Assembly: GCF_016025255.1 (NCBI RefSeq)
Contig: NZ_CP065592.1
Span: 1,097,122 to 1,161,121 of the forward strand
Source: Sphingosinicella flava
Lineage (GTDB): Bacteria; Pseudomonadota; Alphaproteobacteria; Sphingomonadales; Sphingomonadaceae
Length of the DNA: 64,000 bases
Direction of reading: 5' to 3'
The translations under genes were made by a program, and so were the position numbers. Positions within the stretch are counted from its first letter, which is position 1, and every line of letters starts with the position of its first letter. Shown piece after piece: positions 6,664 to 21,662 of this stretch. The notes below the pieces were generated by a model. It was not told the origin of the DNA. It did no database searches and worked only from the letters and a program-made list of their open reading frames with translations.

Positions 6664-7764
6664 TTACATGCCCGAACCCGGACCGAAGGTGATCTGCACG
6701 TTCCGGTTCTGCGGTTCACGCACACCATCGGCCGTGTCGACCAGCGGACGGCTTTCGCCATAGGCTTCGGTCGTCATCTGGCCGTCCGGAATGCCGCGAC
6801 CGGCTAGGTAGGAACGAACATTGTTGGCGCGACGCTGCGACAGACCAACGTTATATTCGTCCGAACCCGACTTGTCCGCGTTACCGGCGAGCATAACCTG
6901 CGCCTGACCCGTCTGCTGCCAAGCGGCAGCGGCGTTGTCGAGGATCGCGGCAGCCTGCGGCGTGATGTCATCCTTGTCCCAATCGAAGAACACGATGAAC
7001 GGACCCTGCTGCACCGGCGGCGGCGGAGGCGGCGGCGGAGGCGGAGGCGGAGGCGGAGGCGGCGGAGGCGGCGGCGGAGGCGGAGGCGGCGGAGCCGGCT
7101 CGGCACCACCGAAGTTGAAGCTCAGGCCGCCGAGCAGGCTGTGCGAACGATGACGGAATTCAAGCTCGTCGCCGCCGGCCGTCACGAGATCGACGTTCGG
7201 CACGTTGAAGAAACGATACTTCAAAGTAACGTCGATATTTTCCGTAACCGCCTGACGAACGCCGGCGATCACCTGCCACGCGAAACCGGTGTCGGAATCG
7301 TCGAGGACCGGATCAAGGTTCGAATAGAAACGAACGTCGTTATGCTTGACGCGCGCGATACCCGCACCGCCGCCAACGAAACCGCTCAGATCGTCATCGC
7401 CGAAATCGGCCATGGCATTGACCATGAAGCTCAGAACGCGTGCGCTGCCGCCGACAGGGCTGATTTCGCCGCCGCCGAGAGCGCCGCTCGTATCAACGAT
7501 GGAGTCGATATCCGCTTTCTTATAGGCTGCTTCAGCTTCGACACGGAACCCGCCAAGATCGTAGCCGACAGTGGCGCCAAGATCGTAACCGGTATCGAAA
7601 TCGATGGTGAAAGCGTCTTCGGTGTCGTCCGCGATGTCGACATCGATGTCTTCGACGATCATCGCACCGCCTTCGACGCCGACATACCACGCACCGTCGC
7701 GCGCGGCGGCCGGGGCCGCAATGGCCGTGGACGACAACGCCATGATAATGGCGAGCTTCCGCAT
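6664..7764 (-). CDS. OmpA family outer-membrane protein with polyproline hinge
   Basis: A 366-residue protein with a Sec signal (about 1-21, ending APAAA). An N-terminal 8-strand beta-barrel follows (about 22-220; GGGAGIARVK and FGGAEPAP regions). Next come 26 consecutive prolines encoded by 7015-7092, then a C-terminal OmpA peptidoglycan-binding domain (FFDWDKDDITPQA, GNADKSGSDEYN, LSQRRANNVRSYL). The upstream frame is open, but MRKLAIIMAL has an AAAGGGGA SD and gives a proper signal peptide. It should tether the outer membrane to the wall. Confidence 0.94.
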   Translation of the reverse strand: MRKLAIIMALSSTAIAAPAAARDGAWYVGVEGGAMIVEDIDVDIADDTEDAFTIDFDTGYDLGATVGYDLGGFRVEAEAAYKKADIDSIVDTSGALGGGEISPVGGSARVLSFMVNAMADFGDDDLSGFVGGGAGIARVKHNDVRFYSNLDPVLDDSDTGFAWQVIAGVRQAVTENIDVTLKYRFFNVPNVDLVTAGGDELEFRHRSHSLLGGLSFNFGGAEPAPPPPPPPPPPPPPPPPPPPPPPPPPPVQQGPFIVFFDWDKDDITPQAAAILDNAAAAWQQTGQAQVMLAGNADKSGSDEYNVGLSQRRANNVRSYLAGRGIPDGQMTTEAYGESRPLVDTADGVREPQNRNVQITFGPGSGM

Positions 7765-7966
7765 AAATATTCCCCTTTCTTCTGCGTTCCGAACAAGGAA
7801 CGACGAGAACCAATTAAAGTAAGCGAGGTTTCGGCGCAAGCGCACTTGTCCCACTACTGTTGCCAAAAAGCTGCATTTCACGCGACTGGCAGGATGCGGC
7901 CTTTCGACAGACGAGCCCTCAAACGTAGCTTTGGAGCTTAGGTTTCATTCCGGAGCTAAAATTTTT

Positions 7967-8464
7967 TCAAGCGATGAGTCCGTGTGACATAAGAGCCGCA
8001 CGGATGGCGGCAATGGCCTGCCTGGCCTCAGCATCGACTATGCCACCGCCCGCAGGACTTTCAATCGGCGGCAACCTGGCTCCAACAACTTGATTTCCAT
8101 CGACAATGAGTTTGGAAACTCTCCATTCTCCGCTGCTCCAGGCGGTTCCGTTCCAATGCCGGAATAGCGAACGTGACTTATCCCAGACCGCCATGCCCTG
8201 CGCCGGCATTGCAAAACGCCATCCGCCGGATGTCCAGCATGCAACGGCATGTTCCATACCGCTCCAGGCACCTGCGGCAGAGGGCGCAACGATCCAGCTC
8301 CGACCAATGCCGGGTGCCGAAGGTGGTGACGAAAGAGCATCCCCTTCAATCGCGGCGCAGAGCATCATATCGATCTGCGCCAGCGCCTCGTTATGGAAAA
8401 ATTCCTTTTGCGCTTGGCCGGGAACAAGGAAAGGCAGGTTTAGTCGCGCGCTTTTCTCAGTCAT
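7967..8464 (-). CDS. DUF2793 family protein at the end of the GTA cluster
   Basis: A 165-residue protein beginning SARLNLPFLVPGQAQKEFFHNEAL, the N-terminal motif of the DUF2793 family. That family is commonly attached to alphaproteobacterial GTA or phage tails. Trp-rich segments follow (WSGMEHAVACWTSGGWRF). It sits 10 bases after gp15 in the same orientation and is the last gene of the run, so a tail-fibre or receptor-contact role is plausible (inference). The C-terminus ends with a short helix (ARQAIAAIRAALMSHGLIA). Confidence 0.8.
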   Translation of the reverse strand: MTEKSARLNLPFLVPGQAQKEFFHNEALAQIDMMLCAAIEGDALSSPPSAPGIGRSWIVAPSAAGAWSGMEHAVACWTSGGWRFAMPAQGMAVWDKSRSLFRHWNGTAWSSGEWRVSKLIVDGNQVVGARLPPIESPAGGGIVDAEARQAIAAIRAALMSHGLIA

Positions 8465-8473
8465 GCTGTTTCC

Positions 8474-10651
8474 TCATAGGTCGATGGTCAAGGTTGCAGG
8501 CCGGGAGCCATGGAACGTTCCGATCTGCGCGACTTCCAATGTGATCCGGTCCGGATTTCCGTCGGCTGCTCGCTCACTCGCGCTATAAAGATGCTGGGGT
8601 GCCGCCGTTTCGACGATGCGCGAGAAGCCAGTGCCGAAAATCCGCAGCATGTAATGCTCACGCTCTTCAACCAGCGGCGTGTCGCCCCCGTCCAGCCAGG
8701 ACCACCCCTGGCGGCTTCGCCGCGCCCAGGCGATATGGACAGCGCCATCCTCCTGCTTGCGAGCCTGCAGATGGACGGGGCAAGGAGGGCGAAGCGCTTC
8801 CCCAGTGACGAGGCAAGCCGTTTCGACGCCTTCGGCCGCATCGCCGATACCCTGAGCGATCAAGCGCGCCGATAGACCGATCCGGCTGACTTCAGGCTCG
8901 AATGAAGCGAGATTGTCCCGTTCGATGAGTACAAAAGGGGCGCCGGGCTCGTGAGAGGCCGCCCATTCGCTTCCCCTCCGCCCCCGCAGCAACCGGCTCA
9001 ACCTGAAGCGGTTGCCGCCAAGCGGCTCCGCCTCTCCGAATTGGATCAGCTCCCTGCCGATCAGGGCCAGGTTGGCACCGGCCGCCAATGCATCGTCGTC
9101 GCAGCTTTCCAGCCACATGTCGTCATGCAGCAATTCCACTTCGATGGTATTGGTCAGGTCCAGCAAGGCCGACCCCGAAGGACCGAGCGGAGCGAGGATC
9201 CGCCCCATGATCGCGGGGCCTGCAGTCATTCCGCCTGCTTCCCAGCTCGTTCCACCATCGTAGCTGACGATCAACTCCGCCTGCCGCCAACCAGGTGACG
9301 TTCCAGCAGCAGCCGCAAGAAGGAGGGGTTTGTTCCGCACGCTTTCTTCGCCAAGCGGAAGATCGGCGAGAACGAGGACGGTTTCGCCATGCACGGCATC
9401 GGTTTGTTCGGATGACCGCCCCGGCGTGGCTGCGATAGGCTGCGGCAATCCTCCTGGAATGCGCACGAGGTCGAGCGAAACCACCATATGTTCGAGCGTC
9501 AGCCGGTCGATCTTCCATAAGCCGCCCAATTCGGCGGCCGTCAGCGCCTCTCCAGGTCTCAGATCCAGATCGCGCCAGCTCAGATGGACCTTCGCCGTTT
9601 CGCGCCCGGCCCAGACGGATTTCAGCCGATATTCGGCAAATCCCTTGGCCTCCGCGGCGGACAGGCTGGCCGGAATGGCGATATTTTCGCGATTGAGGCC
9701 GCCGCTTCCCCGCGAGGCTCGCTGCAGCCCGGTCTGATAATCGCGAACCGGCTCATGATAGGCGATCGTCACATCGTCCGGAGTCAATGTCGCCGCACGG
9801 CGGTTGGTCTCACTCCGTCCGCCCTTCCCACCGGAAGTCGCCTGGGTCAGGTCGGCATCGATTTCAATCGGCATCTCCGGTCGGGGCTTTAGCAAAAGCG
9901 CCCCTTCCATTTCCGAAAGCGAGAGCGGCATGACCGCGAAGAGGGGTTCCAGCGCGCCGCCCACGGAGTTGCCGCTGGCCGCATAACCGCCAAAAGCGGG
10001 CGTCGCGACCGGCGCGGCAATGGCATCGCTCAGCCCTTCCGCGATGCCGCCGGCCGGGACCGGGCCGTCATCCGCCACGATCTCGAACGTCAGCGATGGA
10101 ATGCGGTTGCCGTAATCGGCGAGTTGCAGGTCTTCGAACACGGCATAAGCCATGCCGCGAAAGGCGGGCGTTGCGCCCAATCCTTCCCGCGAGGCGATAA
10201 GGGGATCGACCGCCTGATCCTCGCCGCCGGTATGGAGGCGAAATTTCGTCTTGCTCTTGAAGTCACCCGCCGCTCCGCGCAGCAACTTGCCGTCCGCCCA
10301 GATGCGACGCACCGTCCGGATCGGCCGGCCGGACAGGGCAACCGCAAAGGAAGCGGAGTAGCTGTAGGCCGTCGTCTTGGGCCGCCCCTTTCCGCCTCCC
10401 GACGTGCTTTTCGACTCCTTGATATCCGTCGCCCAGATCACCGTTCCCGCCGCGCGCAGCGTGCCGAATATTTTCGGGATCGCCGTGCCGTATGAGGATG
10501 TCTGGATGGCGAGGTCGCCGAGCCGCGGCCCTTGCCGCCCCTTTGGCGCAAACAAGGCATTGTCGACCTGCTGTCCGATGATCGATCCGATCATGCCGCC
10601 GATCGGCCCGCCGATCGCCGTGCCGACCGCGGTGAAAACCAGGGTCGCCAT
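8474..10651 (-). CDS. GTA gp15-type tail tip protein (short form)
   Basis: A 725-residue tail-tip protein. It opens with a glycine-zipper-like hydrophobic N-terminus (AIGGPIGGMIGSIIGQQ). The segment PKGRQGPRLGDLAIQTSSYG and a phage-tail-type region around residues 200-410 follow, then beta-rich C-terminal repeats like those of the Rhodobacter Rcc01698 family. In R. capsulatus gp15 is about 1300 residues and includes a GTA TIM-barrel domain. No such barrel is visible here, and gp12 carries a barrel-like region instead. Its start codon shares a base with the gp14 stop (TGATG), indicating translational coupling. Confidence 0.88.
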   Translation of the reverse strand: MATLVFTAVGTAIGGPIGGMIGSIIGQQVDNALFAPKGRQGPRLGDLAIQTSSYGTAIPKIFGTLRAAGTVIWATDIKESKSTSGGGKGRPKTTAYSYSASFAVALSGRPIRTVRRIWADGKLLRGAAGDFKSKTKFRLHTGGEDQAVDPLIASREGLGATPAFRGMAYAVFEDLQLADYGNRIPSLTFEIVADDGPVPAGGIAEGLSDAIAAPVATPAFGGYAASGNSVGGALEPLFAVMPLSLSEMEGALLLKPRPEMPIEIDADLTQATSGGKGGRSETNRRAATLTPDDVTIAYHEPVRDYQTGLQRASRGSGGLNRENIAIPASLSAAEAKGFAEYRLKSVWAGRETAKVHLSWRDLDLRPGEALTAAELGGLWKIDRLTLEHMVVSLDLVRIPGGLPQPIAATPGRSSEQTDAVHGETVLVLADLPLGEESVRNKPLLLAAAAGTSPGWRQAELIVSYDGGTSWEAGGMTAGPAIMGRILAPLGPSGSALLDLTNTIEVELLHDDMWLESCDDDALAAGANLALIGRELIQFGEAEPLGGNRFRLSRLLRGRRGSEWAASHEPGAPFVLIERDNLASFEPEVSRIGLSARLIAQGIGDAAEGVETACLVTGEALRPPCPVHLQARKQEDGAVHIAWARRSRQGWSWLDGGDTPLVEEREHYMLRIFGTGFSRIVETAAPQHLYSASERAADGNPDRITLEVAQIGTFHGSRPATLTIDL

Positions 10652-11046
10652 CAGCCGCGCGCCCGCTTGCGCCAGACGGCGATGACCGGCCAGTCCGGCC
10701 GCCCGGGCGTCTCGACCACGCGCCGTGCCCCCGCATCGGCATGCACGAAGCCGCCGTTCGTCACGATCGCGAGATGCAGTTGCGCCACACCAGGGCGCAG
10801 CACCAGCACATCGCCCGGAATAGAAGCCTTCACCGGCCGCATGTTCGCGGCCCGAAAGCCCGCGAACAACTCCTCGGCCGTCCCTCCGCGCAGGGCATAA
10901 TCGCGCCGCACATCCTTGGCGCGCACGGCCAGCGCCGCCAGCCCGATGCAGTCGAGACCCGTCTCCACGCTCCGCCCCTGCGGCCGGAAGCGTACGCCTA
11001 CCAGCCGCCGCGCGCGCGCGGCGACCTTGTCTCCCATTTTCGTCAT
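10651..11046 (-). CDS. GTA gp14, NlpC/P60-type cell wall peptidase
   Basis: A 131-residue cysteine peptidase of the phage tail. The catalytic Cys33 lies in GLDCIGLA, His91 in LHLAIV, and a further His102 in FVHAD. This order matches the NlpC/P60 fold. It should open recipient peptidoglycan during DNA delivery. The start MTKMGDK lies one base after the gp13 stop, and a longer upstream frame is only an overlap with gp13. It overlaps the start of gp15 by one base. Confidence 0.9.
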   Translation of the reverse strand: MTKMGDKVAARARRLVGVRFRPQGRSVETGLDCIGLAALAVRAKDVRRDYALRGGTAEELFAGFRAANMRPVKASIPGDVLVLRPGVAQLHLAIVTNGGFVHADAGARRVVETPGRPDWPVIAVWRKRARG

Positions 11047-11047
11047 G

Positions 11048-11860
11048 TCAGGCTCCCGGATAGCGGGTGAGAAGGTCGATGCCGGGCAGGTGCGGCTCGC
11101 CGCGGAAATTCGCCGCATTGCCGAACCGAGTCCGGCATGTCGTGAAGCTGCGGTCGCAGCCCTCGACGATCTCGATGAGATCTCCGGCGGCGGGCGCGAA
11201 AACCGGCGGCTCGCGTAAGGTGAGCCGCGCCCCGTCCGATGCCGCGATCTGGCTTGCAAGGCCGCTATTCGCCCCGCCGATCCAGCGCAGCTGGCCATAG
11301 CCGTAAGGATTGCCGGCCGCCGCTTCCGCGACCACCACCACGTCCTCCTCCGCGCTGACGACCCGCGTCATCCGGCTGCGCGGCGCCAGGTCGACGCGGC
11401 ACCGCCGGTCGCCCAATTGCGCGCGGCATTCGGGCGACGTTTGCTCGACCACCGGCCTGTCGAGAATCGCGGTGGCGCCGCGCAATTCGGCGGAAAAGGC
11501 GCCGCCTTCGATCGACACATCGCCGATTTCGCCGCTTGCCAGCGCGACCTGCCCGCCTTCCGGATCCGTCCAATCAACCATGAAGATGCGCACCGCCGCG
11601 CGATCCCAGCGCCCGCTCCGCAAGTCGCTTTCGGTGATCGCCGCGCTGGTCAGCGCCCCGCCGATATCGAGGCGCGCGGCATCGAACCCGTCGCTCATCG
11701 CAATGGCGGAAGGCACCATCCCCGGCGCCGCGCGGTAGGTCAAATGCCCGATCTCAAGATCGCGGTCGTGCGTCGTAAAGCCCATGCACACGCCGTCGGC
11801 TCGCTCCAGCCGCCAACAGAAGGCGATGGTGCCGACCGGCGCTTCCAGAAAAGCCGCCAT
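11048..11860 (-). CDS. GTA gp13 hub protein, DUF2163 family, likely Fe-S binding
   Basis: A 270-residue baseplate hub protein of the DUF2163/BR0599 family. Four cysteines, C145 and C154 (SPECRAQLGDRRC) and C235 and C242 (CDRSFTTC), are spaced as expected for the iron-sulfur cluster of this hub class, which is related to lambda gpL. It should connect the distal tail ring (gp12) to the tip protein gp15. It abuts gp12 with no intergenic base and precedes gp14 by one base. Confidence 0.9.
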   Translation of the reverse strand: MAAFLEAPVGTIAFCWRLERADGVCMGFTTHDRDLEIGHLTYRAAPGMVPSAIAMSDGFDAARLDIGGALTSAAITESDLRSGRWDRAAVRIFMVDWTDPEGGQVALASGEIGDVSIEGGAFSAELRGATAILDRPVVEQTSPECRAQLGDRRCRVDLAPRSRMTRVVSAEEDVVVVAEAAAGNPYGYGQLRWIGGANSGLASQIAASDGARLTLREPPVFAPAAGDLIEIVEGCDRSFTTCRTRFGNAANFRGEPHLPGIDLLTRYPGA

Positions 11861-14161
11861 CTACGCCTCCCGCACCTCGATCAGCGCCACGCTCGCCGCC
11901 TCCCCAGCCGCGAATGTCGCGCGGCTGACGCTCAACCGGTCCTCGGCGAAGCGCACCGGCACGTCGAACCGGAATCCCGCCCGGATTGTGACGCCCGTCG
12001 CGGGCGCCTCCCCGAATTGCACGATGCCGAGCGGCGCCAGCGTCCATCCGCCGACCCGCTCCACGCCCCCCACCGAAACCTTCACCGTCCCGCTCACCGG
12101 CCGGGTGATCCGCCGTTCCTGCCCGTCATAGGATTTCACCAGCGGAAACATCGTCCGCACCCCATCGCCAATGCCCAGCAGCTGGTCCCCCGCCCCCGGC
12201 GCGACCGTCATCGCGTTCGAGCTATGGTCGAACGGATCCTCGAACCGGAACGCCACCGCCTGCCCGCGCCGCGCCCGGAAGAAAGCGATGAGTTCGCCCA
12301 ATTCCGCCTCCCCGCGCACGCCGGGCCCGGCATCGAAGCGCAGGCGGGCGTCGGCCCAATCGCTGGTGCGATGCTCGGCCCCGCCCGCCGTCGTCACCAC
12401 CTGGGTTGAAAAAACCGGCTCCACGCTCGCCTCGCGCCCGATCGCGACTGGGAAGCGCACGTCCTCGAAAGCCTCCACCGGCTGCTCCTCTTGAAAGTAA
12501 GTGAATCCGTCCCGCATCACCTGCGGCAAGGCCCAGACGAATACGTCCTCCACCCCTCGCCGCCGGGCCGCCAGCGCGGCCTTGGCGATAGGCCGCCATT
12601 GCGCTTTCTCCTCGGGCTTCAGCACAAAGCCCGAAAAATAATGCTGCCTCTCGACCGGATAGCCGAGCCGCTGCCGCATCTCCGCAAAGCCGAGCGCGCT
12701 CGCCCCCTCATTCCCCGCCGTCACCCAGTCATAATCCTCCAGCTGGAGAATATCGAAGGCGGGCGATGCCCATCCCACCGGCACATTGGCGCGCTTCAAG
12801 TCCGGTGCCTTTTTGTCCAACACCGTCGGCAGGTAGACGAGCAGCGAGGTTTCGGCGCCCGGCGCATCCCATTTCACGATCCCGGCCAGCGCCGCCGTCG
12901 ACGCCGACAGCATCGCCCCCGCTTTGTCGAGCATCCGTTTCTGCGCCGCGTTCATCGGCGCCTTCACGTCCGGGATCGAAACGATGTCCGCGCCGAACGC
13001 CGCCCATGCCGCCTGATCGTAAAGGCAAGGCTTGCCCTCCGCCGTCACCCACCACCACGGCTCGCCGACCTGGAACCGCACCTTCTGCCCCGCCGCCTTG
13101 GCGATGGCGACGAAGGCCAGAGCCACCACCCGCAGATAATACATCGCTCCGTCATGCGCGGGCGACAAAAGGGTCGACGGCGGCTCCCATCCGGTCAGCG
13201 CCGGCGCGCCCTGCTCGGTCCTCTGCTTCCAATCGTTCCACACATGCTGGTCGAGCAATTCGTAGGAGAGGGAGAAGATGATCTCATAACCCAGCGTCTT
13301 GGCCTGGCTCGCGAAGTCGCGGTGCCAGGCTGCGCAAGGGGCATTCAGCGTGCCGCCCGCCAGGCTGATGTAGAAACCCCCGCCATTCGCCTCGAGCCGG
13401 AAATAATGGCTCATGCCGACATAGTGATTGATGACCTCGCGGTAGCCGAGATGCAGCGCATTCCGCAGCACCCGCGCTGCCGTCAGGTGATAGAGGTCGT
13501 CATATCCCGTCGCGATCCGCAGATCGTGCTCCGGCACCAGCGTTTCGCCGATGCCCAGCACCGATCCCGATCCCTCGCAGGCGATCTCGCTCATCTCCAC
13601 CCAGCCTTCCTGGGGAGCCCCAAGCGGCTGGTCCGCTTGCGTGAAGCCGGGGGGCGCCAGCGATATGAACAGCCGGTCGATATCGCCCGCATGGACCGGA
13701 TCGCCGCCGTCCGGGCTGAACCCGTCCATCAGCTTCGCGAAATCCAGCGTCACCACCGCGTCGGTCGGACTGCCGGCGGCATAATTCCACAGCCGGACAT
13801 ACCAGGCCCGCGCCGCGCCGCCCGCATCCCGTCCCTCGATCGTCAGCGTCGGCCCGAAAACCGCGTCGAGCGCCTTCAATCCCCCGCTCCGCCAACGGAA
13901 TTTCAGCACGCACGCTCGGAAATCCCGGCTCGTCTCGTATCGCAGCAGTGGATGATCGTGCCGATCTTCCGCCTCCCAGATCAGCCCCGCCAGATCGTCT
14001 GCCTTGTAGAAAACGGCATCGGCCCGCAGCGCATTGGGCCCGATCGTCGTCACCCCCGCCATCATCGGCCGGGGAAAATTCACCGTCCAGAACCGCGCAT
14101 CGAACCGCTTGATCGTGCCGTGCGCGCGCGCAGCGCCCGGCTTCGCCAGCCAGTGCCCCAT
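11861..14161 (-). CDS. GTA gp12, DUF2460 distal tail protein fused to a large N-terminal TIM-barrel-like region
   Basis: A 766-residue protein. About residues 565-766 (FEDVRFPVAIGREAS, then FFRARRGQAVAFRFEDPFD) are a complete DUF2460/TIGR02217 distal tail protein, which normally stands alone at about 210 residues. The first 560 residues hold a beta-rich module (1-200) and then a glycoside-hydrolase-like region (about 210-550) with aromatic-rich motifs such as QVGEPWWW (365-371) and LQLEDYDW (473-480). Glu367 and Glu475 could be barrel acids, but catalysis is unproven. The SD is GAAAGGAT. Confidence 0.85.
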   Translation of the reverse strand: MGHWLAKPGAARAHGTIKRFDARFWTVNFPRPMMAGVTTIGPNALRADAVFYKADDLAGLIWEAEDRHDHPLLRYETSRDFRACVLKFRWRSGGLKALDAVFGPTLTIEGRDAGGAARAWYVRLWNYAAGSPTDAVVTLDFAKLMDGFSPDGGDPVHAGDIDRLFISLAPPGFTQADQPLGAPQEGWVEMSEIACEGSGSVLGIGETLVPEHDLRIATGYDDLYHLTAARVLRNALHLGYREVINHYVGMSHYFRLEANGGGFYISLAGGTLNAPCAAWHRDFASQAKTLGYEIIFSLSYELLDQHVWNDWKQRTEQGAPALTGWEPPSTLLSPAHDGAMYYLRVVALAFVAIAKAAGQKVRFQVGEPWWWVTAEGKPCLYDQAAWAAFGADIVSIPDVKAPMNAAQKRMLDKAGAMLSASTAALAGIVKWDAPGAETSLLVYLPTVLDKKAPDLKRANVPVGWASPAFDILQLEDYDWVTAGNEGASALGFAEMRQRLGYPVERQHYFSGFVLKPEEKAQWRPIAKAALAARRRGVEDVFVWALPQVMRDGFTYFQEEQPVEAFEDVRFPVAIGREASVEPVFSTQVVTTAGGAEHRTSDWADARLRFDAGPGVRGEAELGELIAFFRARRGQAVAFRFEDPFDHSSNAMTVAPGAGDQLLGIGDGVRTMFPLVKSYDGQERRITRPVSGTVKVSVGGVERVGGWTLAPLGIVQFGEAPATGVTIRAGFRFDVPVRFAEDRLSVSRATFAAGEAASVALIEVREA

Positions 14162-14243
14162 GTGGCGATCCTTTCAATATGCGTGAAGAAAGTTCAGATT
14201 ATTATTTGCGCGCCATTCACGCTGCAGATATCATCCATTCCTG

Positions 14244-14618: not shown

Positions 14619-15188
14619 CTAATCCCCCACTTGCATCAGCGCCCGCTTCACCGCTCGCGCGACTTGACGGCTTGATTGCGCCAGCGCCTGCGGTCCATCG
14701 CCACTCCCGGCGTTGATCGTGATGCTCAGCCGTACATCCCGGCCGCCTGGCGCGATCCCCGTTTCCACCCGTCCGCTCGATGTCGGCACGAACACTTCCG
14801 GCCCGCGCTCGCCGACTAGGTAGGCACGGCCCGGCGCCACCGGACCGCCCGTCGCTCGTCCGGGCAGGCCGAGCGCTCCGGCCAGCAATTGCCCGGCCAG
14901 GCTCACCAGCCCCTGCCCGCCATTCCCCGCCATCGCGCCGACCCCGCCACGCACCGCATTTCCGGCAATCTCCGCCATGGCAGACAGCGCAACGCGCTTC
15001 AGGTCGTCGAACCCGATCTTGCCTGTCCGCACCGCGCGCAGCAGCGCATTTTCCAGCGCTCGTCCCGCCCGATCCGCGCCCGCCGCCAGCGGCCCGTCCA
15101 GTTCGCCGCGCATAGCCGCCACGTCCCGCGCGAACGCCGCCGTGTCCGCCCGCACACTGACGAGCAGGCTTTCGATTTCCTCATCCAT
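14619..15188 (-). CDS. GTA gp11, short tail tape measure protein
   Basis: A 189-residue protein with an N-terminal helical repeat region (SLLVSVRADTAAFARDVAAMRGEL). A Gly/Ala-rich central hydrophobic stretch follows, then a C-terminal motif typical of tape measure proteins (GRAYLVGERGPEVFVP). Its small size fits the very short GTA tail. It should set tail length and sit in the tube lumen. A class A repeat occupies the space upstream, between it and gp10.1. Confidence 0.88.
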   Translation of the reverse strand: MDEEIESLLVSVRADTAAFARDVAAMRGELDGPLAAGADRAGRALENALLRAVRTGKIGFDDLKRVALSAMAEIAGNAVRGGVGAMAGNGGQGLVSLAGQLLAGALGLPGRATGGPVAPGRAYLVGERGPEVFVPTSSGRVETGIAPGGRDVRLSITINAGSGDGPQALAQSSRQVARAVKRALMQVGD

Positions 15189-15205
15189 CTTCTGAGCACC
15201 TTAAC

Positions 15206-15300
15206 CGTCACCCCGGACTTGATCCCGGGGTCCATGAACACGGACCTATCCGGACAAGGCGGTGTTCATGGATTCCAGCTTTCGCTGGAATGACGAACAA
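15206..15300. repeat. Class A REP/REPIN-type repeat, copy 1
   Basis: It contains an internal inverted pair, TGAACACGG and the complementary GTGTTCA, separated by a short loop. It is flanked by palindromes ccggacttgatcccgg and ttccagctttcgctggaa. A closely similar unit lies at 56578-56672. It has entered the end of the gp10.1 frame and supplies the last residues and the stop codon of that protein. Confidence 0.8.
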
Positions 15301-15485
15301 GGCCCGTCGGGATACATCTCCATCAGCCGCTTCAGATCGCCCGCCGAAGCGGCTGCCTCTTCCGGCATCAACGCTGCCATTACCGCGCCCAATTCGGCAG
15401 GCGTCGCGTTCCAGAATTCGTCCGCCCGCCAGCCAAGCAGGACGCCCGTCAGCCCGGCGAGCCGCGCCGCCGCCGCTTCGAACAT
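15246..15485 (-). CDS. GTA gp10.1, tail assembly chaperone-like, with repeat-derived C-terminus
   Basis: A 79-residue protein. The first ~60 residues (EAAAARLAGLTGVLLGWRADEFWNATPAEL, then MAALMP) match the small rcc01693/DUF2376 type found between gp10 and gp11. The last ~16 residues (SSFQRKLESMNTALSG) are a translation of the class A repeat, and the stop lies inside it. The ATG overlaps the gp10 stop as TGATG. The native C-terminus seems to have been cut and replaced; the conserved part is complete enough that function may persist. Confidence 0.8.
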   Translation of the reverse strand: MFEAAAARLAGLTGVLLGWRADEFWNATPAELGAVMAALMPEEAAASAGDLKRLMEMYPDGPCSSFQRKLESMNTALSG

Positions 15486-15874
15486 CACCGCCCCTGCAAT
15501 ATCTGCGTCAGCAACGTGCGCAGCAGCGGTGCGGCCTTGCCCAGCCCCATCTCCACCAGGGCCGCACCGACCAGGTCGCGCGTGCAGGTTTCGGGCCGGT
15601 CATGAACGCAATGCCAGAACAATCCCGCCATCTCGCTTACCGTCAGCCCGCCTGCCGCAGCCCGCTCGGCCAGCGGGAACAAGGGCCCCAATTCCTCTTC
15701 CGCCGCCACCAGGGCGGCAAAGGTCGGGCGGATCAGCAATGTTTCGCCGCCCGCGATTAAAGCCGCCTCGCCGCGTGCCGTTATTGCCTTACGTCCCCCA
15801 CAGGACGATCCCCCTGCCTGCCGGGCCATGGTTCCCATGTGTCCGGCAGGCACTTTTCCCGCCCCGGCGCTCAC
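15485..15874 (-). CDS. GTA gp10 family protein
   Basis: A 129-residue protein. From about residue 30 (ARGEAALIAGGETLLIRPTFAALVAAEEELG) it follows the GTA_gp10 pattern: a beta hairpin then helices (GLTVSEMAGLFWHCVH). The family is thought to aid tail assembly. The GTG start overlaps the gp9 stop (GTGA). The first ~28 residues look unconserved, so an internal Met (MGTMARQ) could be the true start. Downstream coupling to gp10.1 is by TGATG. Confidence 0.82.
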   Translation of the reverse strand: MSAGAGKVPAGHMGTMARQAGGSSCGGRKAITARGEAALIAGGETLLIRPTFAALVAAEEELGPLFPLAERAAAGGLTVSEMAGLFWHCVHDRPETCTRDLVGAALVEMGLGKAAPLLRTLLTQILQGR

Positions 15875-16278
15875 AAGGCGGCGACCGCGCCAGCGCTTTC
15901 CAGGCTCAGCGTATAATTGCGCTCGCCATTATAATCGCCGCTATAGTCGAGCCGCGTGACGAGGAATTTGCCGCGCAGCCGCTCGCCGCTTTCGAAGCTC
16001 AATTCGTAATCGTCGATCGTTCCGGTGAGCGCATGGCCCTTGACCCGCAGCTCCGCCGCCGAACCGGTGAAGATGCCGCTGGCCGCCACCGAAACCGATC
16101 GCACACCCGCGCCTGACAGCAATTCCCGCCAGCCCCCGCTGTCCTTGCTGGTGACGTTCACCGCTTCGCCGCTCACCGACATCTGGGTCGTGCGCATGCC
16201 GGCGACTGTATTGAACTGGGGCGGTGCGCCGCCATTCCCGATCTTGAGCAGGAATGCGCTTCCTTTTTCGGCGGGCAT
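15871..16278 (-). CDS. GTA gp9, major tail tube protein
   Basis: A 135-residue tail tube subunit. It has the family features KGSAFLLKIG, NTVAGMRTTQMSVSGEAVNVTSKDSGGWRELL, and a C-terminal beta region ending NYTLSLESAGAV. A strong AAGGAGAA SD precedes the ATG, which suits a high-copy structural protein. It should stack in hexameric rings to form the tube. Upstream, on the opposite strand, lies a small secreted-protein gene that separates it from gp8. Confidence 0.9.
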   Translation of the reverse strand: MPAEKGSAFLLKIGNGGAPPQFNTVAGMRTTQMSVSGEAVNVTSKDSGGWRELLSGAGVRSVSVAASGIFTGSAAELRVKGHALTGTIDDYELSFESGERLRGKFLVTRLDYSGDYNGERNYTLSLESAGAVAAL

Positions 16279-16307
16279 GAGTCATTCTCCTTTCAGGTTA
16301 AACAGCA

Positions 16308-16655
16308 ATGGAATTCGCCATGTTTTCTCTTGCACTCAGCATGGTCCTCGCCGCCGCTGCCGCGGCGCCGGATCCCGTCATTCCCGCCCGCAAGGCCTAT
16401 TCCGCCTGCCTCAACAAGGTGACGATCGAAAATCTCGACAAGAAAACCGATGCCTCGGCTTTCGATGGCCTCCTTCAAGGCGCCTGCGCCGCGCCGGAGG
16501 CGGAATTGAAAAAGGCCTTGATCGCCAGCGATCTCGCCCGCGGCTTCAAGCGCAAGGATGCCGAAGAGGGCGCGGCCCTTCAGATCGACGACTATCTCGC
16601 CGTCGCGAAGGAGGATTATCGCGGCTATCAGGAAAGCAAGACGAAACCGAACTGA
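16308..16655 (+). CDS. Small secreted protein encoded against the GTA cluster
   Basis: A 115-residue protein with a signal peptide (residues 5-20, MFSLALSMVLAAAAAAP) and a charged helical mature part with two Cys (SACLNKV, GACAAPE). I do not recognise a family. The ATG at 16308 lacks a clear SD; the Met four codons later gives a more standard signal. It fits tightly between the gp8 stop (4 bases) and the gp9 start (29 bases) on the opposite strand, leaving almost no room for its own promoter outside gp9. Confidence 0.65.
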   Translation: MEFAMFSLALSMVLAAAAAAPDPVIPARKAYSACLNKVTIENLDKKTDASAFDGLLQGACAAPEAELKKALIASDLARGFKRKDAEEGAALQIDDYLAVAKEDYRGYQESKTKPN

Positions 16656-16659
16656 GCGG

Positions 16660-17049
16660 TCAGCGCGCGAGCTCCAGCAAGCGGGCCCTGAATTCCGCGA
16701 GGCCGGTCCATCCCGTTCCGCTTCGCACGACGCGGCTGCGCAGGAAACGCAGGGTCACGATTTCCCAATCCGCCAGCATTGCAGGCGACGCAAGAATTGC
16801 CGCCTCCGCCGCGCCCATCAATGCGTGCAATCGCGCCGCGCTCGGCCCTTTGTCGGCGATCGTGACCGCGATCCGTACCTCCCGTCCCGCGCGATCCTTG
16901 CAGCTCCAGTCGCTCTCCGGCCCGATCTCGACCACCGCATGCGGAAAGGCTGCGCCTTGCGCCGCGCCGTGATGCACGCCGCCCGGCAAGGCCAAATTCG
17001 TCAGCGCCGCGCTGAGCGTTTCGGCAAGCGCCGCTCCCGTCATCGCCAT
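16660..17049 (-). CDS. GTA gp8, DUF3168 tail terminator/completion protein
   Basis: A 129-residue protein of the DUF3168 family. It has an N-terminal helix (ALAETLSAALTNLALPGGV), central strands (AVVEIGPESDWSCKDRAGREVRIAVTI) and a C-terminal FRARLLE segment. It should cap the tail where it meets the head. Its start overlaps the end of gp7 by 10 bases, so translation is probably coupled. Confidence 0.85.
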   Translation of the reverse strand: MAMTGAALAETLSAALTNLALPGGVHHGAAQGAAFPHAVVEIGPESDWSCKDRAGREVRIAVTIADKGPSAARLHALMGAAEAAILASPAMLADWEIVTLRFLRSRVVRSGTGWTGLAEFRARLLELAR

Positions 17050-17243
17050 CCTCCCATCCGCAACCAGCTTAACGCCCGATCCAGAACCAGCCTGCGCCGC
17101 AATCCCGGGCCGGTCAGCCTGATGACCTCCCGCCCGGCTTCCACTTTAATGTCCCCGGGCAGCGATGCGCGCGCTTCCGCGGCAAGCGTCTCCACCCGCC
17201 GCTCCGCCGCCGCCTGAACCCGCTTTTCCAAAATATCGAACAT
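17040..17243 (-). CDS. GTA gp7, small head-tail connector
   Basis: A 67-residue basic protein (FDILEKRVQAAAERRVETLA, RLVLDRALSWLRMGGWR). A longer frame extends upstream but only shadows gp6. The ATG at 17243 shares its first base with the gp6 stop (TGATG), the same coupling signature seen at gp10/gp10.1 and gp14/gp15. Position between gp6 and gp8 matches the stopper/adaptor gene gp7 of the R. capsulatus cluster. Confidence 0.8.
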   Translation of the reverse strand: MFDILEKRVQAAAERRVETLAAEARASLPGDIKVEAGREVIRLTGPGLRRRLVLDRALSWLRMGGWR

Positions 17244-17773
17244 CAGGCACATCGTCCGAACGGCATGCGCCGCCACGGCCGCCACAAAGCCGTCACTGCC
17301 GCCGGCGGACCTTGGCCGTCTCCCGTATCGCGCGCCGCGTATAAATGCGCCGCGAGCCGCACGATCCCCTGCCGCAGCGCCTCCGGCACCTCCGTCCAGG
17401 TCGCGGCGATTCCGGCACGGAAGGTGATGCGCACCGTCTTCACGCCGTTCGTCACCCGCACCCAACCGTCGCCCGCCGCGTCGATGTCGATCTCATAATC
17501 CCCGGTCGGCAGCGCCTCGCCATCCCGATCAACGACGCCCAGGATCGCGTTGACCGGCGTTGCGCTCAAGCGCCGCCAGCCTGCTTCGCCCGCCATCGTC
17601 TCGCTTCCATCCCGCGCCACCAGCCACTGGCCGGTAAAGGCCTCGCAAAGGGCGGCGGCGCTCGCCGTCATGACGCCAAGCACCGCGTCCTCGCTCGCGC
17701 CCTCGATCCGCGCATAGGCCTTCACCGCGGCCAGGGCTTCCGCCAACGCCGCGCCTTCGATCACATTCCCCAT
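17243..17773 (-). CDS. GTA gp6, head-tail adaptor
   Basis: A 176-residue connector. It has an N-terminal helical part (EALAAVKAYARIEGASEDAVLGVMTASAAALCEAFTGQWL), a beta region (TGDYEIDIDAAGDGWVRV) and a helix with EALRQGIVRLAAHLYAARD typical of gp6-type adaptors. It should join the portal to the tail. The capsid gene precedes it, with a 73-base gap that contains a strong hairpin. Confidence 0.87.
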   Translation of the reverse strand: MGNVIEGAALAEALAAVKAYARIEGASEDAVLGVMTASAAALCEAFTGQWLVARDGSETMAGEAGWRRLSATPVNAILGVVDRDGEALPTGDYEIDIDAAGDGWVRVTNGVKTVRITFRAGIAATWTEVPEALRQGIVRLAAHLYAARDTGDGQGPPAAVTALWRPWRRMPFGRCA

Positions 17774-17798
17774 AATTCCTCCGCCCCGAAAGGGTCGC

Positions 17799-17830
17799 GC
17801 CGCCCCGGCAAAGGGGGAAACCGGGACGGC
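17799..17830 (-). other. Strong hairpin after the capsid gene
   Basis: A 10-bp stem (GCCGTCCCGG with CCGGGGCGGC, one G-U pair) closes a 12-base loop, 16 bases downstream of the capsid stop. No T-tract follows, so it is more likely an mRNA 3'-end stabiliser or processing site than a terminator. That would favour a high capsid transcript level within the long operon (inference). Confidence 0.6.
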
Positions 17831-17846
17831 GCAGACAAGATCGGCG

Positions 17847-18962
17847 TTAGGCCGAAAACTTCAGCAATTTGATCGCTTCCGAATTCACCACAGCGCCGCC
17901 CACGCGTTTGGTCGCATAGAAATGCACGAACGGCTTGTTGGTGAACGGATCGCGCAGGATCTGCGTCTCCGCCCGCTCCGCGATCAGATAGCCCGCCTTG
18001 AAATTGCCGAATGCGATGGACAGGCTGTCCGCCGCCACGTCGGGCATGTCTTCGGCCTCCGCGACCGGATAGCCAAGCAAGGTGTCCGGCTGCCCCGCCA
18101 CGAGGCCCGGCTGCCACAGGAACGCGCCGTCGCTCGTCTTGAACTTCCGGATCCGCGCCGCCGTCGCACTATTCATCACGAACACCGCGCCCTGCCGGTA
18201 AGGCGAGCGCAGCGCCTGGACGAGGTCGATCAGCTTGTCCTGCGGGTTGGACGCCGCGAAACCGCCCGCGACGCCGGTCGTGATGAACTGAAGCGTCCCG
18301 AACGGCCGCACGCCATCGGCCTGCGCGCTGTTCGGCGAAGCCAGGAAGCCGCGCGGACGGTTGGTCCCGTTCCCCGCCACGAACGCCGCGCCCTCGGCCC
18401 GCGCAAATTCCGTTGCGATCTCGCTCGCCAGCCACGCCTCGACATCGAACGCCGCGTCGTCGAGCATCGCCTGAGAGGCCGCCGGGTTGGCGTAAAGCTC
18501 CCCGAACGGCGGCGCCACTTCGGCGAAATCCGGCGTGTTCGTTTCCGGCCGCCCCGCCGTGCCCGACACCCAGCCCGATGGCGTGCCTCCAGTCGTCACC
18601 AGCTTGCGATATCCCGCCGATCCCACCTTCACGACATTGGCGATGGCGCGGATCGGGGAAATCGCCGTCAGCGTCTTCTCGATGGCCGCGTCGATCTCCT
18701 CCGGCACCGCATAGCCGCCCGCTGCGTCCGTGGCGCCCGACACCGCTTTCACCTCCAGCCCCGTCTCCACGCCCTTGCGCACATAACCGTCAAATGCGGC
18801 GCTCTTGACGCCCGATAGCGGAGCCCGCGCCCCCGCCACCGCCGCCGCGTCGACCCGTCCCCTCAACGCCGCGACTTCCTCGCGAAGCGCCGCGACATCC
18901 TCGTCCTGCCGCTCGATCGCGTCGAACGACGCCTCCAACGGATCCGCTTTCACTTCCAACAT
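17847..18962 (-). CDS. GTA gp5, HK97-type major capsid protein
   Basis: A 371-residue capsid protein. Residues about 1-45 are a charged coiled coil acting as a scaffold (AIERQDEDVAALREEVAALRG). The HK97 core begins near residue 75 (ATDAAGGYAVPEEI). Recognisable parts are PIRAIANVVKV, the GNGTNRPRGFL loop and the P-domain LLGYPVAEAEDMP. Its C-terminus ends NSEAIKLLKFSA. The upstream neighbour gp4 is the matching protease. A REP palindrome lies in its leader. Confidence 0.95.
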   Translation of the reverse strand: MLEVKADPLEASFDAIERQDEDVAALREEVAALRGRVDAAAVAGARAPLSGVKSAAFDGYVRKGVETGLEVKAVSGATDAAGGYAVPEEIDAAIEKTLTAISPIRAIANVVKVGSAGYRKLVTTGGTPSGWVSGTAGRPETNTPDFAEVAPPFGELYANPAASQAMLDDAAFDVEAWLASEIATEFARAEGAAFVAGNGTNRPRGFLASPNSAQADGVRPFGTLQFITTGVAGGFAASNPQDKLIDLVQALRSPYRQGAVFVMNSATAARIRKFKTSDGAFLWQPGLVAGQPDTLLGYPVAEAEDMPDVAADSLSIAFGNFKAGYLIAERAETQILRDPFTNKPFVHFYATKRVGGAVVNSEAIKLLKFSA

Positions 18963-18989
18963 TCGCTCTTCTCCTCACGCATGATCAAA

Positions 18990-19043
18990 AGCCCCTCCCT
19001 TCGATGGGGGGAGAGGTTGGGGAGGGGTGATGTCCCCACCCAC
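18990..19043. repeat. Class B/C REP-type palindrome between gp4 and gp5
   Basis: It contains agcccctccc, a short loop, gggggagagg, then ggttggggaggggtgat and cccaccc. The same words appear in the longer palindromes at 48391-48560 and 54251-54363. It lies in the capsid gene leader without altering either coding frame. Confidence 0.65.
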
Positions 19044-19067
19044 ACAGATTTTCAGAATAGGAAGCCC

Positions 19068-19493
19068 TCAGCCTTCCACCGCATGCACCCGCGCCTTGGG
19101 CTGCATCGGAAAGGTCACCAGGCTCACCTCGACCAGATCGAGATCGGTAAGCTCCCTCGGCTCGGCCCCCGAAGCCGCCCGCACCCGATACCCAAAGGAC
19201 AGCCCCCGCACCGCGCCCGCGCCCAGCAAGCGCGCCGCCTCGCCATCCGCCACGCGCCCGATCACCCGCAGCCCGCGCCCGTCTTCGGCCAAAAGCTCGA
19301 TCCGCCCGATCGGCCGCCCCGCCTGATGCTGCCACAGCAAGGGCACTTCGCCCCCGCGCTTCAGCGCCCGCGCAAAGGCGCCCGCCCGCACCACGTCCCC
19401 GCCCCGGTCCACCCGGTCGAACACGGCGGCATAGCCCGCAAATCTAAGCCCCTCTCCCCTTTGCGGGAGAGGGGTTGGGGAGAGGGGCCTCAT
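19068..19493 (-). CDS. GTA gp4, prohead protease (HK97 family) with repeat-derived N-terminus
   Basis: A 141-residue serine protease. The conserved fold starts at LRFAGYAAVFDRVDRGGDVV. A PLLWQHQAGRPIG segment should hold the catalytic His, and LSFGYRV holds the Ser. It should cleave the gp5 scaffold during maturation. The first ~15 residues (RPLSPTPLPQRGEG) are translated from a REP palindrome at 19449-19474, an in-frame insertion or start replacement. The ATG still overlaps the previous gene's stop (ATGA), so coupling was preserved. Confidence 0.88.
   Translation of the reverse strand: MRPLSPTPLPQRGEGLRFAGYAAVFDRVDRGGDVVRAGAFARALKRGGEVPLLWQHQAGRPIGRIELLAEDGRGLRVIGRVADGEAARLLGAGAVRGLSFGYRVRAASGAEPRELTDLDLVEVSLVTFPMQPKARVHAVEG
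19449..19474. repeat. Class B REP palindrome inside the gp4 5' coding end
   Basis: CCCCTCTCCC and GGGAGAGGGG arms surround a 6-base loop. It is followed by ttggggagaggggc up to the gp4 ATG. It is translated as part of the gp4 N-terminus. Similar palindromes lie at 19824-19843, 19920-19942, 46306-46325 and 46384-46403. Confidence 0.8.
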
Positions 19494-19804
19494 GGCAGCA
19501 GATCCTTGACCCCCATCTTCACCGCCATGCCGAGCACCAGCAGCATCAGCCCGATCCGCACCGCCCAGCCGACGAATGCCGCCCGCGCCGACTTCTTGGC
19601 GTCACGCCAGGCCTGCAAAAGCTCGCGCAACTCATCCATGTCCCGCCGCGCCCCCGGCTCATTGAGGCCGATCGCGCCCAGCGCCCGCTCCGCCCCCGCC
19701 TGGCTCGCTTCCTCAACCAGAGCGCGGAGCGTCACCAGCTCCACCCCCTTCGCCTCCGCCTGAGCCATCAGGCGGGCCAGCATCGATGCGCTTCCACTTT
19801 CCAT
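19490..19804 (-). CDS. GTA-associated small membrane protein (gp3.5 position, DUF6127-like)
   Basis: A 104-residue protein with an amphipathic helical N-terminus (MLARLMAQAEAKGVELVTLRALVEEASQAGAERA split over residues 8-41) and one C-terminal membrane helix (FVGWAVRIGLMLLVLGMAVKMGV). It occupies the gp3.5 position between portal and protease and resembles the DUF6127 proteins of sphingomonad GTA clusters. Its role is not known. It overlaps gp4 by four bases. Confidence 0.75.
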   Translation of the reverse strand: MESGSASMLARLMAQAEAKGVELVTLRALVEEASQAGAERALGAIGLNEPGARRDMDELRELLQAWRDAKKSARAAFVGWAVRIGLMLLVLGMAVKMGVKDLLP

Positions 19805-19823
19805 TATCGTAATCCCGTCTGTT

Positions 19824-19942
19824 CCTTCTCCCGGTGGGAGAAGGATACGAAGCCTTGCGGCTCTGCCGCCTAGGCGAAGTTGGATGAGGGTGACCGAGAG
19901 CCGCTCGCCCTCACCCCTGCCCCTCTCCCGCTGGGAGAGGGG
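19824..19942. repeat. REPIN-like pair of class B palindromes between gp3 and gp3.5
   Basis: Two palindromes, CCTTCTCCC-GGGAGAAGG (19824-19843) and CCCCTCTCCC-GGGAGAGGGG (19920-19942), bracket about 76 bases. The right-hand one lies inside the gp3 coding end and is translated as SPLPAGEGQG. This two-palindrome layout is typical of REP doublets. Confidence 0.75.
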
Positions 19943-21053
19943 AGAAGCCCAGCATCTCCCGTTTCTCGTCCCGTGTCAGGAAATCCGCGCCGCTCACTTG
20001 CGCCCAGAGCCGCTCCCGGTCCTCCGCCAGCGCCGTCACCAGATCGAGATCGACGTCCAGCTTCACCCCCGGCCACCAGGCTGAAAGCCCCGCCGAAATC
20101 CCGCCCAAAATCTTGTCCAGCATCGGCAGCAAGGTAAGCCTCCAAAGCGCCCGGTTCGCTTCCCGGTAATTGGCGTAGGTCGCGTCCCCCGGCAGGCCCA
20201 GCAGCATCGGCGGCACCCCAAAGGCCAGCGCGATCTCCCGCGCCGCCGCCGCCTTCAGCCCCACGAAATCCATATCGGCTGGGGTCAGGCTCATCGCCTG
20301 CCACTTGAGGCCGCCCTCCAGCAGCATCGGCCGCCCGGCATTGCCCGCGCCCTGGAACGCTGCCTCCATCTCCTCTCTCAGCCGCCGATATTGATCGCCG
20401 GACAGCGCTGCCCCGTCTCCCGGCGCATAGACGAGCGCGCCGGAAGGCCGCGCCGCATTGTCGAGCAGGGCCTTGTTCCACCGCGTCGCCGCATTGTGGA
20501 TCGCCACCGCTCCCGCCGCAGCGCCGAGGCATCCCAACCCATAATGATCGTCGAGCGGATGCACCGCCTTCAGGTGCAGGATCGAAGGCCGCCCCAACCC
20601 GTCTCGCGCCGCGAACCGCGTCCGCGCCGCGCCAGCCTTGTAGAGGTAAGCAACAGGCCACCCGCCCGCATCCGTCTCCACGCTCACCCGCTCGGGCCGC
20701 AACGCGAATAATTCCGCCGGCTCGCCGCCCGCATCCTGGATCACCTGAATGAAGGCATTGCCATGCAGCAGCAAATGCGCCGCCACCGTCTCCAGCAATG
20801 CCCCCGTCTTGGTCAGGGCCGTTGCCCGTCCCGAACCTGCCGCCTGGCCGCTCTCCGCTTCGAAGATCGGGGCCCCGCTCACCCCCTCGGCCACCAACCG
20901 CAAGGCGCGTTGCGCCACCGGATTGGCGAGCACCGCCTCCCGCACCTGTCCTTCATAGGAGCGCGGCCAACCCGCCTCGCTCCGGTCCTGCCACGCGCCC
21001 AACAAAAAAGGCCGCCCGGCATCCCGGACGGCCTTGCGACCCCACCATTTCAT
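19911..21053 (-). CDS. GTA gp3, phage portal protein
   Basis: A 380-residue HK97-type portal. It carries VREAVLANPVAQRALRLVAEGVS, HGNAFIQVI and the conserved AFGVPPMLLGLPGDATYANYREA loop, followed by the stem (LLPMLDKILGGISAGLSAWW). It forms the DNA entry channel and docks the terminase. The last ~12 residues come from a REP palindrome, so the native C-terminus has been replaced. The ATG is close to KWWGRK, which is the usual portal start. Confidence 0.93.
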   Translation of the reverse strand: MKWWGRKAVRDAGRPFLLGAWQDRSEAGWPRSYEGQVREAVLANPVAQRALRLVAEGVSGAPIFEAESGQAAGSGRATALTKTGALLETVAAHLLLHGNAFIQVIQDAGGEPAELFALRPERVSVETDAGGWPVAYLYKAGAARTRFAARDGLGRPSILHLKAVHPLDDHYGLGCLGAAAGAVAIHNAATRWNKALLDNAARPSGALVYAPGDGAALSGDQYRRLREEMEAAFQGAGNAGRPMLLEGGLKWQAMSLTPADMDFVGLKAAAAREIALAFGVPPMLLGLPGDATYANYREANRALWRLTLLPMLDKILGGISAGLSAWWPGVKLDVDLDLVTALAEDRERLWAQVSGADFLTRDEKREMLGFSPLPAGEGQG

Positions 21054-21115
21054 ATCTGTCTCCGTTCTACGGTGTCTTCACCGCTCCCGTCCCTGGCGGA
21101 AAGCCGGCACTGGCA

Positions 21116-21619: not shown

Positions 21620-21662
21620 GATCGGCCTCCTTGGTGCGATCCTATGCGCCCTTCCTGTAAAG

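Follow-up and report, generated by a model that had tools for sequence, protein, structure and literature searches.

The window analysed here is a stretch of 64,000 nucleotides of the Sphingosinicella flava genome (assembly GCF_016025255.1, contig NZ_CP065592.1, positions 1,097,122 to 1,161,121), which contains a gene cluster resembling the gene transfer agent (GTA) of Rhodobacter capsulatus, RcGTA. Gene transfer agents are virus-like DNA-delivery particles and are thought to use a conserved baseplate to pass their DNA through the envelope of the cell. The gp12 gene of this cluster was found to encode a distal tail protein (Dit) fused to an N-terminal module of the type present in the tail sheath of phage N4, and the product of gp15, the megatron, was found to lack the triosephosphate isomerase (TIM) barrel domain that its RcGTA counterpart carries. 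It is considered likely that gp12 is the Dit of an RcGTA-like GTA in which the N4-type module replaces the TIM domain of gp15, with a proposed role on glycans. Computation showed the domain make-up, the fold, the spread across the order and the invariance of the acidic pocket, and also that the peripheral TIM domain is absent wherever the module is present. No fusion of gp12 with an N4-type module in GTAs of the Sphingomonadales was found in the portions of the literature consulted; a 2017 paper on an "ancient prophage of Sphingomonadales" may mention it.

Domain composition of gp12 and gp15

An earlier note, made from the sequence letters, had described gp12 as a protein of 766 residues with about 560 extra N-terminal residues. 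The open reading frame was confirmed, and the extra part was resolved into an NCTSP_N domain and a barrel of the PF23845 family that precede a complete Dit domain. The scores were 309.2 bits for NCTSP_N (PF23844) and 553.8 bits for TIM-barrel_NCTSP (PF23845), with a curated cut-off of 27, and the C-terminal part scored above the respective cut-offs as a distal tail protein (DUF2460, 244.2 bits; TIGR02217, 194.7 bits). Sequence searches of the PDB returned N4 Gp64 for the barrel (E 5e-46), the N4 "non-contractile tail sheath" protein (gp65) for the N-terminus, and RcGTA Rcc01695 together with the R4C distal tail protein for the C-terminus. The match of the first domain and the barrel to gp65 and gp64 supported the suggestion that an independent sheath-like or sugar-binding module had been gained.

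A structural model of gp12 was computed from an alignment of 61 homologs, with a mean predicted local distance difference test (pLDDT) score of 88.8 and a predicted template modelling score of 0.81; the weak stretches were residues 559-563 and 586-603. The model consisted of an N-terminal domain rich in beta structure, an alpha/beta barrel of eight strands (at 215-219, 243-247, 293-299, 362-366, 437-443, 471-475, 506-510 and 539-542) and a Dit domain. In structural comparisons the best match to the barrel was N4 gp64 (9yf5_SA; Z 29.7, rmsd (root mean square deviation) 2.2, 298 residues aligned, 32% identity), with a second N4 gp64 match to the model at Z 28.2, followed by the C-terminal domain of PgaB (Z 22.8) and by a series of glycoside hydrolases that included the family 14 (GH14) beta-amylase (Z 22.3) and GH42 (Z 21.9). 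Residues 563-766 matched the R4C Dit (8gtc_G) with Z 19.8. This part of gp12 is a full Dit like those of RcGTA (Rcc01695) and R4C, which differ from gp12 in being 210-214 residues long, without the 560-residue N-terminal module. Megatron chains of RcGTA or R4C were not among the 50 matches listed for the gp12 model; of RcGTA gp15, 6tba models a minor part, in a chain of 439 residues.

The other half of the change lies in gp15. Only Phage-tail_3 and Rcc01698_C scored above the cut-off, and the protein failed the test for a full-length GTA megatron (NF048004, 437.8 bits against an equivalog cut-off of 800). When aligned to RcGTA gp15 (6tba_8A), residues 1-226 corresponded to 1-235 and residues 221-717 to 792-1295, with about 556 residues gone. 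The published domains of the megatron are the iris (1-46), adhesin-like (47-229), peripheral (230-744), central (745-984) and fibre-binding (985-1304) domains (PMC7296036); since the alignment gap matches 230-744, the missing part is the peripheral domain. A 2026 preprint describes this region as a peripheral TIM-barrel domain of unknown function (PMC13420450). The model of gp15 (pLDDT 87.2) had N-terminal helices followed by mainly beta structure, with no barrel. Its structural matches were compact hub proteins such as RcGTA gp15, chains from the tail tips of phages T5 and Chi, and a JBD30 baseplate chain of 727 residues. The earlier description of gp15 as a 725-residue protein without the barrel was therefore upheld by Pfam, the alignment and the model alike. 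Structure prediction of the two proteins gave neither a gp12 fold unrelated to a TIM barrel nor a barrel inside gp15. A profile search for the RcGTA barrel family, GTA_TIM (PF13547), gave no match across the whole genome of S. flava, with Caulobacter vibrioides as the positive control.

Other known systems also resemble the fused protein in part. N4 gp64 and gp65, which form a non-contractile sheath in which gp65 is the receptor-binding protein (PMC12633501), have the PF23845 barrel fold, the same invariant residues and, in gp65, the NCTSP_N family. In N4 the barrel family is divided between two genes, whereas in gp12 both domains lie on one chain, fused to the Dit of a short GTA tail. In the N4 locus (L246; genes at 8758-10011 and 10044-14192) gp65 contained NCTSP_N plus positions 4-46 of the barrel profile and gp64 contained positions 60-347, which raises the possibility that the two chains of the sheath heterodimer together make up a single barrel. 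The lateral tail fibres of coliphages (phi92 gp142 and those of rv5-like and ESCO13-like phages) carry NCTSP_N and the PF23845 barrel on one chain, the pair being found in the rv5-like and ESCO13-like fibres with the profiles made here; they differ from gp12 in that no Dit or hub domain was found in the chain and in belonging to large phages with other baseplates. The homology of such fibres to N4 gp64 is already in print (PMC8594841). Finally, the peripheral domain of the RcGTA megatron is likewise a baseplate TIM barrel of a few hundred residues in the same kind of particle, but it is of another family with unlike profiles, sits on another carrier protein and is absent here.

Features of the GTA cluster in the window (positions counted from the first nucleotide of the window)
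Feature	Position	Strand	Basis
gp12, distal tail protein with N-terminal N4-sheath-type module, 766 aa	11861..14161	-	open reading frame, Pfam, model pLDDT 88.8
NCTSP_N domain, gp12 aa 17-205, beta-rich	13547..14113	-	PF23844, E 9e-93
TIM barrel, PF23845 type, gp12 aa 210-553; invariant D221, E301, E367, E475, D551	12503..13534	-	PF23845, E 2e-166; eight-strand barrel in model
Dit / DUF2460 domain, gp12 aa 567-764	11870..12463	-	PF09343, E 1e-72; TIGR02217 over cut-off
gp15, short megatron, 725 aa, without peripheral TIM domain	8474..10651	-	Pfam, alignment, model
gp15 junction (~aa 221-229), point of the ~556-residue peripheral domain of RcGTA gp15	9965..9991	-	alignment to 6tba_8A
gp13 hub protein, unfused here, 270 aa	11048..11860	-	PF09931, PF09356
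gp14 open reading frame, NlpC/P60-like peptidase position	10651..11298	-	PF00877 E 0.13, below cut-off; gene order
DUF2793 protein, directly after gp15	7967..8464	-	PF10983
OmpA-family gene marking the fixed site of the cluster	6664..7881	-	PF00691
Remaining GTA head-tail cluster	14619..22991	-	gp11 (short, tape measure-like), two chaperones, tube, completion, capsid, protease, portal, terminase

Conserved acids of the barrel and its proposed role

In glycoside hydrolases the active site lies at the C-terminal strand ends of the barrel, and clan A is defined by a pair of acids at strands 4 and 7. The five acidic residues listed in the table were invariant across 61 gp12 proteins. In an alignment of 45 barrels that takes in phi92, rv5, Goslar and N4-like phages, E301, E367, E475 and D551 were identical in every row, as was D221 in the 42 rows that reached its column; W369 and W371 were identical in 45 of 45, and most of the EPWWW motif was invariant. 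The acids were located in the gp12 model at strands 1, 3, 4, 6 and 8, at or just past the C-terminal ends, which is the glycoside hydrolase trait of a TIM barrel with invariant acids at these ends. The glycoside-hydrolase-like stretch pointed out from the letters, QVGEPWWW (E367) and LQLEDYDW (E475), fell in the model at the ends of strands 4 and 6. Acidic residues on the C-terminal face of the barrel are kept from coliphages to these GTAs.

The best enzyme match to the fold was the PgaB C-terminal domain (residues ~312-662), which is named a "glycoside hydrolase domain" in the title of a related PDB entry; identity was 10%, and any correspondence of catalytic residues or substrate is putative. 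Infection by N4, rv5-like and phi92-like phages, all of which bear this barrel, requires wecB, and the BASEL authors report that N4 gp64 is homologous to a Vequintavirinae fibre and that Phyre2 predicted a poly-N-acetylglucosamine (poly-GlcNAc) deacetylase domain (PMC8594841, PMC8669472). Because the barrel matches the C-terminal half of PgaB, the comparison favours hydrolysis or glycan binding over deacetylation. The phage records H36 and H100 label this barrel as a poly-GlcNAc deacetylase or carbohydrate deacetylase, a label that may be wrong since the fold match is to the hydrolase domain; for N4 gp64 and the rv5-like fibres, it is suggested that the "glycan deacetylase" label points at the wrong half of PgaB.

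The RcGTA baseplate is built with six subunits of the Dit, three of the hub and three of the megatron, and the N-terminus of the Dit contacts the hub and the megatron (PMC7296036). Since the Dit is hexameric in RcGTA, the tail tip would be surrounded by a ring of about six barrels. Such a ring would bind, and probably cut, the surface polysaccharide of the recipient cell, which would let the baseplate reach the outer membrane, and the module would take the place of the different TIM domain carried by RcGTA gp15. The module is probably a swapped glycan-binding or glycan-cleaving tool present in six copies per particle. In the boldest step of this proposal, the fused barrels may do the work of TspA in the Sphingomonadales; TspA is the biofilm-degrading tailspike of RcGTA, which touches the Dit and the peripheral domain of the megatron and is reported to be absent outside the Rhodobacterales (PMC13420450).

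The glycan proposal was weighed against a role without catalysis, in which the barrel would serve as a structural or receptor-binding sleeve that, like a sheath subunit, packs against the tail or its neighbours and only recognises a receptor. The sheath formed by N4 gp64 and gp65, with receptor binding by gp65 (PMC12633501), is in keeping with such a sleeve, as is the lack of a conserved acid at strand 7. Strands 4 and 6 are among those with conserved acids and strand 7 is not, and the clan A pair is therefore absent: the strand-7 nucleophile was missing (H507-G511 occupy this position) and no acid was conserved there in the 45 barrels. As a result no catalytic pair is assigned and the barrel may be a mere binder, which counts against a cleaving role; glycan activity or binding by the gp12 module is itself a prediction. 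The Pfam name "sheath" is also inherited from N4, and wrapping of the GTA tail by the module is putative. Nevertheless, the invariance in 45 barrels of acids on five strands and of most of the EPWWW motif goes beyond the needs of packing, and the sleeve is considered rather unlikely.

Gene cluster, chromosomal site and distribution

The gene order was that of RcGTA: terminase, portal, protease, capsid, tail completion, tail tube, chaperones, a short gp11 and gp12 to gp15. In named genomes with enough flank (≥4 kb after gp15), the OmpA-family gene adjoined the gp12-fused cluster in 57 of 57 loci and the DUF2793 gene in 46 of 57; 13 further named-genome loci had too little flank. The OmpA gene was beside none of the three gp13-fused loci (described below) with enough flank. 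The gp12-fused cluster looks like a vertically kept element at one site. RcGTA-like clusters have been predicted in 65% of Sphingomonadales operational taxonomic units, including the "conserved prophage" of the order (PMC6821227). The alternative of an ordinary prophage, in which gp12 would be a phage-specific receptor-binding protein and not a GTA part, is very improbable: related modules do occur in phage contigs and prophages, and databases place many of these loci among viral contigs, but the complete gene order, the constant OmpA neighbour of the gp12-fused loci and its absence from the gp13-fused loci, and the published prediction all argue against it.

A search with the main alignment returned NCTSP_N and the barrel in 160 of 160 loci, with the Dit in the same frame in 159; these loci were the best 80 of many matches per collection and so are biased to close relatives. 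Their sizes gave a marker, a gp12 of ~740-790 residues with a gp15 of ~704-761 residues. Among 149 genomes of the family, PF23845 was found in 97, DUF2460 in 102 and the gp15 C-terminal family in 111; no genome had GTA_TIM over the cut-off, and one had a weak partial match (19.4 bits). Across the order PF23845 was found in 71 of 147 genomes, spread over six families. Twelve regions from five other families of the order comprised ten gp12 fusions, nine with a complete, short gp15 core and one ended by the contig end, and two gp13-fused second copies, whose host genomes also have the gp12 fusion. The particle encoded here, which has an N4-type module on its Dit and lacks the gp15 barrel of the other family, is a genuine variant, found across the order, of one already known.

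A frame of 119 residues from the Imm50 immunity-protein family (14244-14603, plus strand; 36.0 bits, cut-off 27.1) lies between gp11 and gp12 on the opposite strand. Among the loci searched, it was present inside the GTA cluster in this genome only.

Two barrel families, their mutual exclusion and history

The comparison with PF13547 was run profile against profile. The hhalign probability of the gp12-type barrel against GTA_TIM was 1.4%, and those of the N4-type and phi92-type barrels were 0.6% and 2.2%; as a control, the N4-type barrel was compared with the phi92-type barrel, which gave 100%. The families are different, and the gp12 barrel therefore belongs with that of N4, phi92 and rv5, although a very old common origin is possible as both are TIM barrels. 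The earlier suggestion that the barrel had moved between tail proteins was not supported for GTA_TIM; in a weaker sense it applies to the N4-type module, which is found on gp12 in the GTAs and on gp13 in related prophages and phage contigs. Relocation of GTA_TIM from gp15 to gp12 with divergence past recognition, with which the agreement in size (about 556 residues missing, about 560 extra) and the shared layout, in which ~200 residues precede a TIM barrel, are consistent, was rejected as the leading reading on these profile values and on the absence of GTA_TIM from the genome, and is regarded as extremely improbable. As one part of the explanation favoured here, and at the same level of confidence, the profiles argue for a swap between two barrel families without detectable kinship.

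An intact gp15 core was present in 256 loci, which reduced to 218 distinct clusters once identical cores were removed. The N4-type barrel occurred in 172 of these (163 on the Dit, 8 on gp13 and 1 unassigned), and both barrels occurred together in none of the 218. The gap between the two gp15 parts measured 25-101 residues in all 172 clusters with the N4-type barrel and 513-772 residues in the 25 with GTA_TIM. The remaining 21 comprised 12 with an insert of a third kind and 9 with a short gap. The third insert (367-458 residues; L067, L339-L342, L345, L346 and L350-L354, several of which have a gp13 insert too) lies at the same point of gp15 and had no profile similarity to either barrel (0.1-0.2%). 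The gp12 fusion is not due to chance, since it was found in 163 of 218 distinct clusters, although many of them were retrieved with the barrel as query. The location of the module on the N-terminus of the Dit or hub, near the place of the megatron peripheral domain, would explain the exclusion.

Several points weigh against an exchange of one barrel for the other. Most clusters were retrieved using one barrel or the other as the query. In an evenly drawn sample of 289 genomes of the class, PF23845 was found in 4, GTA_TIM in 29 and DUF2460 in 48, and although no genome had both barrels, co-occurrence by chance would amount to only about 0.4 genomes. Few independent events stand behind the exclusion (one gp12-fused clade and one gp13-fused group), because the 163 clusters share ancestry. 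In addition, no barrel was found in the nine clusters with a short gp15 gap. Six of these are from the Sphingomonadaceae (L070, L071, L072, L074, L075 and L077) and three are divergent (L068, L348 and L349). Head or tail genes were missing from L070, L072, L075 and L077, L074 had a truncated Dit frame and L071 started at a contig end. L070, L072, L074, L075 and L077, which appear to have kept gp15 and its neighbours and to have lost or truncated gp12 or other genes, look like cases of GTA decay. A separate locus, L343 (G140, 7964-9985), has a 674-residue frame that joins a gp13-like part to the C-terminal part of gp15 with nothing between, perhaps a deletion remnant.

The same module was found on the N-terminus of gp13 in L066, from another order, and in L064, from a Sphingomonadaceae genome in which it is a second cluster; the Dit of these loci is a free frame of 216 or 231 residues and gp15 is short. 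When these two loci were used as the query, 71 viral-contig loci were found, of which 6 were gp13-fused, 53 gp12-fused and 12 partial or split. The hub-fused loci as a whole (L064, L066, L247-L251, L311, L368 and L370) share the module and the gene neighbourhood with the gp12-fused loci, and gp15 is short wherever it lies within the stretch; they differ in that the module is on gp13 and the Dit is separate, at 208-237 residues (489 in L251; 211 in L368 and L370). Three genomes contain a gp12-fused GTA and a separate gp13-fused cluster (L064/L065 in G398, L367/L368 in G444 and L370/L371 in G455), and the second cluster is probably a prophage.

In a tree of 45 barrels, the gp12-fused proteins formed one clade (98/97), in answer to the earlier call for a phylogeny of this region. 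The gp13-fused proteins formed another (100/99) that grouped with N4 gp64, Lebethron and Pavpe01 (99/96), and uniting both fused forms was not rejected (approximately unbiased test, p = 0.141). In the gp15-core tree both forms fell on the same side of a branch whose support was 42. In a concatenated tree under a mixture model the gp13-fused loci adjoined other phages; under plain LG with 32 of 55 rows they were on one side with the gp12-fused loci (support 49). The baseplate-core trees were weak or in conflict, and the trees as a whole are compatible both with one acquisition followed by a switch of partner and with two separate acquisitions. The C-terminal ~190 residues of the Lebethron and Pavpe01 protein had no similarity to gp13 (0.1%).

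Taken further, and tentatively, the clusters may share one slot for a glycan module with at least three unrelated fillings, used one at a time: GTA_TIM in gp15, the ~370-460-residue gp15 insert of the 12 clusters, and the N4-sheath barrel on the Dit or hub. The N4-type filling would have become fixed across the order as a ring of about six hydrolases that replaces the detachable TspA. Such a slot becomes testable by exchange of domains in GTAs. The paired lengths of gp12 and gp15 provide a clear marker for Sphingomonadales GTAs, which are partly filed as viral contigs. The order-wide natural swap of the megatron barrel for the N4-type barrel is a ready-made comparison, and one that predicts which surface glycans matter.

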